NCBI GenBank assembly: GCA_031267935.1
Contig: JAIRYD010000158.1
Coordinates: 1-32,874, forward strand
Reading direction: 5' to 3'
Origin: Tannerella sp.
GTDB lineage: Bacteria; Bacteroidota; Bacteroidia; Bacteroidales; Tannerellaceae
Length of the DNA: 32,874 bases
A program made the translations under genes and the position numbers. Positions 12,735 through 32,874 of the stretch are shown piece by piece (within the stretch, counting starts at the first letter, position 1; each line of letters opens with the position of its first letter). Under the pieces are notes generated by a model. It was given only the letters and a program-made list of their open reading frames with translations. It was not told where the DNA came from and made no database searches.

Positions 12735-12853
12735 GGAACCTCTAAAAAACCCGACTTCTGCGTTACGCTTCGTCGCTAAAATGCTCGTTTACGACAGGTA
12801 AACTCCGCTTTTAGCTCCTCGCAAGCCTTGAATTCGGAGTTTTTAGAAGTCCC
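12735..12853. mobile_element. MITE-like element, copy 1
   Basis: A non-coding segment of about 119 bp with imperfect terminal inverted repeats: GGAACCTCTAAAAAACCCGA at the left, and the right end reads GGGACTTCTAAAAACTCCGA on the other strand. Inside are nested palindromes, GCTAAAA with TTTTAGC and GTTTAC with GTAAAC, so the whole unit can fold into one long hairpin. A diverged second copy of nearly the same length is at 32206-32322. No transposase is encoded; being a MITE rather than a structured RNA is inference. Confidence 0.75.
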
Positions 12854-29036: not shown

Positions 29037-29185
29037 GATTCTCTCCGTCCGGAACCCGGACATTCACAATCTGACTCGATTCCGTCCGTCCGGGACCCGG
29101 ACGTTCACAATCTGACTTGATTCCGTTCGTCCGGGACCCGGACGTTCACAAGCTGACTTGATTCTGTCCGTCCGGGACCCGGACG
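29037..29185. repeat. 41-bp direct repeats with internal palindrome
   Basis: Three full 41-bp units (29037-29077, 29078-29118, 29119-29159) and a 26-bp partial unit (29160-29185). Units 2-4 contain the near-perfect palindrome GTCCGGG-A-CCCGGAC; unit 1 has one changed base in it. The remaining unit sequence reads roughly TTCACAATCTGACTTGATT with few changes. 41 is not a multiple of three, so it is unlikely to be coding. Confidence 0.92.
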
Positions 29186-29270
29186 ATCGCTATGCATACC
29201 CGGTTCCACGGTTTTCTTTTCCGGTATTCCTTTTCATTGCATGGTAACGTGGAACAGACAGGATATAACA

Positions 29271-29363: not shown

Positions 29364-29468
29364 AGTTAGACTCGCAATTTCAGACCGCGTGAAGTATAAC
29401 TCCCCGTCGGCGCGAAATGGCAACCCGTGCCAATCCTTGTCCTATATAAAACGACACGGGCTGCAAGC

Positions 29469-29504
29469 CTCCCGGATTGCTTCACTGCATTCGCGATGAC
29501 GGGG
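29469..29504. repeat. Single-arm copy of the palindromic repeat at 176-211
   Basis: About 36 bases match 176-211 with roughly four changes, mostly transitions. The opposite arm is missing here. Confidence 0.8.
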
Positions 29505-32205: not shown

Positions 32206-32322
32206 GGAACCTCTGAAAAACCCTGCTTCTGCGCTACGCACGTCGCTAAAATACTAATTTACTATCAGTAACATTCACTTTAGCACCTCACAATCCTCGT
32301 ATTTGGAGTTTTTAGAGTTTTT
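32206..32322. mobile_element. MITE-like element, copy 2
   Basis: About 117 bp with the same ends and order of internal palindromes as 12735-12853: GGAACCTCTGAAAAACCCTG at the left, and CTCTAAAAACTCCAAATACG reading in from the right on the other strand. GCTAAA/TTTAGC and TTAC/GTAA pairs are retained although the bases between differ. It marks the change from GC-richer chromosome to the AT-rich right edge. Confidence 0.7.
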
Positions 32323-32383
32323 TCAATGTTCATATTATTAAAAAAATTAGTAATTATTAAGTGGTGCAATATAAAAAGAACAG

Positions 32384-32391
32384 TAATTTTG
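32384..32391 (+). promoter_or_regulatory. Putative Bacteroidota -7 element at the AT-rich edge
   Basis: TAATTTTG matches TAnnTTTG and ends 15 bases before the ATG at 32407. In AT-rich DNA a chance match is more likely, so confidence is modest. Confidence 0.4.
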
Positions 32392-32406
32392 CAGAAAAAA
32401 CGAACA

Positions 32407-32703
32407 ATGGATTTGAGGCGGGTATGGATAAAAAGAATTGAGAAACAGGATTACGCATCTGTATGTAAAAAGGGATGTGCAGGAGAAGAATATATAGTAT
32501 TACCGCAACATGAAAAACGGCGGAAACTGATTTTTCATGCCAGTCAATATTATGTCTTGCAAGCGTTTGGTGGAAATGTTTTTGGGATTTATTCGAATTG
32601 GCTGTTATCCATTCGGTTGATACGGCGAGCAGGGATTTTCAAAATGATCAAAAGAAATTCAATTTATGGAGAAAGACAAAGACAGTGCAATAAATTTTTT
32701 TAA
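32407..32703 (+). CDS. Small protein of unknown function
   Basis: 98 residues from the ATG at 32407, basic, with no signal peptide or clear membrane segment. I recognise no family. The start is favoured over the longer frame at 32326 because a -7 element lies just before it. Its last 38 bases overlap the following nucleotidyltransferase-like gene in another frame, which could mean translational coupling as in toxin-antitoxin or small defence operons, or that this frame is spurious or a broken remnant. Base composition is visibly AT-rich, unlike the rest of the window. Confidence 0.4.
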   Translation: MDLRRVWIKRIEKQDYASVCKKGCAGEEYIVLPQHEKRRKLIFHASQYYVLQAFGGNVFGIYSNWLLSIRLIRRAGIFKMIKRNSIYGERQRQCNKFF

Positions 32704-32874
32704 AGAAAAAATTATCAGGATATATAAACCGCTTAAAATTGCGCAAATAGGTTCTAATCGTAAAGTTAAGGATAAGACTGATGATTACGATTGCAAGAGT
32801 GATTTTGATATGATTGTTGTTGTAGATGATAAACTTGACTGTTACGAATATATGAAACAGATATCTTCTGTAAT
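32666..32874 (+). CDS. Nucleotidyltransferase-fold protein, 5' part only (runs off the window)
   Basis: Sixty-nine codons are visible from ATG 32666, the first ATG after an in-frame TGA at 32645; the frame stays open to the end. The start reads MEKDKDSAINFFKEKI, then IGSN and, 16 residues on, SDFDMIVVVDD. GS followed by SDxD in front of a hydrophobic strand is the metal-binding signature of the polymerase-beta-like nucleotidyltransferase fold. The spacing is longer than in small MNT antitoxins (about nine), so a larger type such as a CD-NTase or another KNTase-like enzyme is possible. The rest of the gene is needed to decide. Confidence 0.65.
   Translation, partial: MEKDKDSAINFFKEKIIRIYKPLKIAQIGSNRKVKDKTDDYDCKSDFDMIVVVDDKLDCYEYMKQISSV

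Follow-up and report, generated by a model that had tools for sequence, protein, structure and literature searches.

A clipped nucleotidyltransferase gene at the end of a Tannerella contig may open a type III-B CRISPR-associated cassette with HEPN-like and SLATT membrane proteins

The window, that is, the whole stretch of 32,874 nucleotides of Tannerella sp. DNA that was analysed, is an entire contig (C237) of the assembly referred to here as G000, so the assembly holds no sequence to the right of position 32874. The last 25 bases are present only once in G000, and therefore no linked contig was found as a continuation. In 300-bp windows, the GC content dropped past 32.1 kb from about 0.60 to 0.34, with values of 0.315 at 32326–32874 and 0.537 at 1–32100. 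This abrupt shift, which the original prediction had placed after the second of two MITE-like elements, was indeed located directly past a copy of a repeat of approximately 113 bp (32206–32322) that borders the AT-rich segment (32323–32874, GC 0.32–0.34). The element is a real dispersed repeat: the window has another copy at 12735–12847 (79% identical to the first), the rest of G000 holds at least eight more, and some also occur in the genomes G016 and G017. It is likely a MITE, and likely also a cause of contig breaks.

The GH95 gene neighbouring the segment is present in related genomes of the same genus, in which the AT-rich segment is missing beside the orthologous gene. In three of the five relatives checked (G009, G019, and G026), the place of the repeat and the AT-rich segment is taken by genes that we read, from their translations, as Fur-like and rubrerythrin-like. 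Thus, the segment is acquired and non-core, as had been proposed from its composition; the clipped gene at its end was found in only 2 out of 124 genomes of the family (G000 and G043), contrary to the core-genome conservation that had been considered as the opposite case. Other repeats were seen in the window: a tandem array of 41-bp units (CCGTCCGTCCGGGACCCGGACGTTCACAA...) at 29037–29193, downstream of the GH95 gene; and a 41-bp repeat at 171–211 and 29464–29504, 29 kb apart and 90% identical, which is another dispersed short element. Several G000 copies of the 113-bp repeat lie at contig ends (e.g., C69:2–114 and C26:6–118).

Two overlapping frames on the forward strand lie in the segment, a small unrecognised ORF and a clipped gene, as originally predicted (32326–32703 and 32666 to the contig end). 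The small ORF would encode 125 aa if read from the ATG at 32326 and 98 aa from that at 32407; the latter is the likely start (32407–32703, 98 codons), leaving an overlap of 38 nt with the next gene. The ATG at 32407 stands after the box TAATTTTG (forward strand, 32383–32390), which resembles the Bacteroidota -7 box TAnnTTTG and, going by its letters only, is a possible promoter of the unit. Searches of Pfam, NCBIfam, PADLOC, PHROGs, phages, and viral contigs returned nothing for the small ORF. In simulations matched to the composition of the AT-rich stretch, frames of at least 98 codons arose in 2.4% of cases and frames of at least 69 codons in 14%, so frame length alone is weak evidence of coding.

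The second gene (32666–32874, forward strand) is represented by the 69 codons of its 5' end, with a GS-x15-DFD motif, and its frame (32666–32872) stays open where the contig end cuts it. A complete homologue of 110 aa, 63% identical over the visible part, was detected in G043, a genome of the same family ("Bacteroidia bacterium MS495-74", contig BNTS01000133.1), and the two differ by an in-frame indel of two codons; for these reasons the clipped frame is a real gene. This G043 contig was also the only one holding a close relative in a search across plasmids, phages, viral contigs, and the contigs of 84,980 species, and the window protein had no sequence match in the PDB. The dispersed repeat adjoining the fragment, the 69 codons seen, and the overlapping small ORF devoid of homologues would all fit a non-functional piece of an MNT gene that remained in an AT-rich scar flanked by repeats. 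However, the frame shows no disruption as far as the contig end, it is conserved over this length, and the motif residues are kept, and we consider such a decayed remnant very improbable.

In the HMM searches that the original prediction had suggested, the complete G043 homologue matched PDC-S09, a candidate-defence model of PADLOC that picks up MNT proteins, at 3e-10, and no CD-NTase match was obtained. With a profile that we built from 27 MNT proteins of Bacteroidales it scored 5e-6, far better than any of 1000 shuffles, and the profile–profile probability for MNT was 95%. The window fragment alone gave 0.0051 with the PADLOC model and 0.014 with our MNT profile, the latter just above the best shuffle. 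Whereas the motif described for MntA is GSX10DXD (PMC7641770), the spacing is longer here, the window having GS-x15-DFD and G043 GS-x13-DFD. On these profile matches and this spacing, the G043 homologue and the window gene are, judged by sequence, divergent MNT proteins. The structure model of the G043 protein was of low confidence (pLDDT 57), with an alpha-beta-beta-alpha-beta order of elements, and its structural matches included several enzymes of the Pol-beta fold (terminal uridylyltransferases, AadA, an archaeal MNT, and CD-NTases), with modest Z values of 5–6.4, a range in which unrelated folds also turn up. Foldseek gave no match below 0.001 with this model, which does not count against the MNT family.

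Two other nucleotidyltransferase families were rejected, as their members are much longer. CD-NTases reach about 300 aa or more at full length versus the 110 aa of the complete homologue, with no match to any CD-NTase family; aminoglycoside nucleotidyltransferases are two-domain proteins of about 250 aa, versus a single domain in G043, with no match to resistance families of Pfam or NCBIfam. From the toxin–antitoxin or CD-NTase-type unit put forward in the original prediction, the nucleotidyltransferase and the defence context were retained, with an MNT-like protein in place of the CD-NTase, and the antibiotic-modifying transferase that it had named as a counter-case was not supported.

In G043, the MNT gene belongs to a type III-B CRISPR operon in the order cas6, MNT, HEPN-like::SLATT_4, SLATT_4, cmr1, cas10, cmr3. 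It overlaps the gene of a 289-aa protein in which an N-terminal HEPN-like helical domain is joined to a SLATT_4 domain with two transmembrane segments (2TM), and the third gene of the cassette encodes a SLATT_4 protein of 175 aa. Both partners scored above the cut-off of NCBIfam SLATT_4 (1.4e-17 for the fusion and 1.2e-32 for the third-gene protein) and contain two hydrophobic segments each. The GC content of the cassette genes (0.23–0.32) is lower than that of the cas genes (0.36–0.42), and the cassette looks as if it had been inserted among them. A second Cas10-palm-like protein, in a 572-aa frame, was also noticed in G043 (C9:8123–8602).

When the phylum was searched with the fusion protein, a match was obtained in G530, which belongs to another class; in this genome, a 104-aa MNT (3.9e-6 against PDC-S09; DxD kept, no GS), a 428-aa HEPN-like membrane protein, and a 178-aa SLATT_4 protein precede cmr1, cas10, cmr3, and further type III-B genes. 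The MNT gene overlaps the HEPN-type gene 3' of it in G530 too. Identities between the G043 and G530 proteins were 34% for the MNT (61 aligned residues), 24% for the fusion, 43% for the SLATT protein, 28% for Cas10, and 29% for Cmr1. The two Cas10 proteins are short; GGDD is retained in both, and neither shows an HD dipeptide. Past its first pair of hydrophobic segments, the G530 fusion (L070 8279–9553) seemingly has more, in an arrangement of HEPN plus two 2TM units, and a Cas6–reverse transcriptase fusion with a Cas1-type match lies at the far end of the operon (L070 3–1391, G530:C22). In both complete cassettes the partners of the MNT are encoded downstream, which, together with the absence of relatives of the small ORF, speaks against the earlier idea that this ORF is the partner of the clipped gene.

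Beyond these two genomes, a type III locus in G828 carries a similar SLATT_4 protein, with a Csm3-like gene on one side, cas6–cas1 on the other, and no MNT (L071 2926–3444, G828:C97); the role of SLATT as a type III effector may thus be more general. Elsewhere in the order, SLATT_4 genes lie mostly beside a nucleotidyltransferase-like gene of about 270–300 aa, in a CBASS-like arrangement, and not beside an MNT; the HEPN::SLATT fusion was found in none of the 393 genomes of the order, in a search run without a positive control.

By sequence, the HEPN assignment had modest support: the domain matched PF05168 over its full length at 0.088 and a HEPN profile made from MNT partners of the order at 0.0087 (the best of 1001), and its profile–profile probability was 76%. 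The AF2 model of HEPN::SLATT was poor (pLDDT 43), and the fold search with it returned generic helical bundles only, an uninformative result that does not count against the HEPN or SLATT families. The RX4HXY motif is not kept, since G043 shows R36-x5-H42 with no Tyr and G530 retains the R with a K in place of the H. As the RNase motif is not conserved, and as PF05168-type (class II) HEPN partners are reported likewise to lack RX4H (PMC7641770), the domain is more likely non-catalytic and adaptor-like than an RNase.

On this basis, we hold it about as probable as otherwise that the window ends in the MNT gene of an acquired MNT / HEPN-like::SLATT_4 / SLATT_4 cassette, as its first gene, with the locking mechanism set out below; this reading draws on one close homologue and on the gene order in two genomes. 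Neither SLATT_4 nor Cas10 was detected in G000, an assembly scored 99.8% complete, in searches with G043 as positive control; HEPN::SLATT was likewise missing from G000 in the search of the order. Because SLATT_4 and Cas10 are absent elsewhere in the assembly, no further part of the unit was retrieved, and either the remainder was lost in an assembly gap or the window copy has another partner.

The latter case would include an ordinary two-gene HEPN/MNT toxin–antitoxin system, in which a plain HEPN toxin of about 130 aa would follow the window MNT, with no SLATT protein or CRISPR operon. Such pairs are abundant, the MNT family being present in 239/393 genomes of the order and a HEPN of about 130 aa directly following the MNT in many of them, and the lack of SLATT_4 and Cas10 in G000 fits them. 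In contrast, the window MNT resembles the MNT of the G043 CRISPR cassette (63%) much more closely than it does ordinary MNTs, which have no long loop between GS and DxD, and PDC-S09, which does find ordinary MNTs, stayed below threshold on the G000 fragment, so that we consider an ordinary pair unlikely. A G043-type cassette standing alone in G000 and working without a CRISPR operon appears more doubtful still. The gene upstream of the window MNT is not cas6 and no Cas10 was found in the assembly; in addition, the G043 cassette may move independently, as its GC content is below that of the surrounding cas genes. However, both complete cassettes found sit in type III-B operons, and the missing Cas10 is weak evidence because assemblies readily lose islands of deviant composition.

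For the cassette in a type III-B operon, the following mechanism can be proposed. Target RNA would activate Cas10, which is short and HD-less, and the intact GGDD cyclase of Cas10 would make a nucleotide messenger; this messenger would lead both SLATT 2TM proteins to permeabilise the membrane; SLATT proteins have been predicted by Burroughs, Aravind and colleagues to be nucleotide-responsive pore-formers, according to their citation in PMC7159879. Through the HEPN-like domain, the MNT would be tethered to the membrane effector, which it would keep inactive until infection, either by nucleotidylation or by simple binding, in the way that MntA acts on HepT. We see a fair chance, somewhat short of even, that this is a new type III-B cassette in which a toxin–antitoxin-like lock acts on a CBASS-type effector triggered by a Cas10 messenger, with the window holding its first gene. 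Full-text searches, in a literature of incomplete coverage, returned no paper describing type III CRISPR operons with SLATT proteins, and a survey of type III effectors makes no mention of SLATT or nucleotidyltransferases (PMC11229360).

Three known systems share parts of this arrangement. As in HepT/MntA (PMC7641770, PMC3710099), the MNT gene comes first in G043 and G530 and overlaps the gene of a HEPN-type partner; unlike there, the partner carries a fused 2TM SLATT domain and is followed by a second SLATT protein, the location is a cmr operon, RX4HXY is not kept, and the GS–DxD spacing is 13–15 instead of 10. In the Cmr system of Bacteroides fragilis, a membrane protein receives the signal from Cas10 (PMC10600005). 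This CorA/NrN type III-B system, which uses SAM-AMP, likewise combines an HD-less Cas10 with cyclase and a candidate membrane effector in Bacteroidota, although the cassette has SLATT_4 proteins and MNT/HEPN where B. fragilis has CorA and the NrN phosphodiesterase. Finally, CBASS loci with a SLATT 2TM effector (L043–L046 and a plasmid match, H1) also place a SLATT_4-family effector beside a nucleotidyltransferase, but their nucleotidyltransferase frame is of 266–302 aa versus the 110-aa MNT of the cassette, and in G043 and G530 it is Cas10 that is present as messenger source.

If this proposal is true, MNT/HEPN pairs, SLATT membrane effectors, and type III CRISPR signalling, three known parts of defence, would join in one operon, which would allow the control of a membrane effector by an AMPylation-type lock to be tested, and the arrangement may hint at a messenger distinct from cOA and SAM-AMP.
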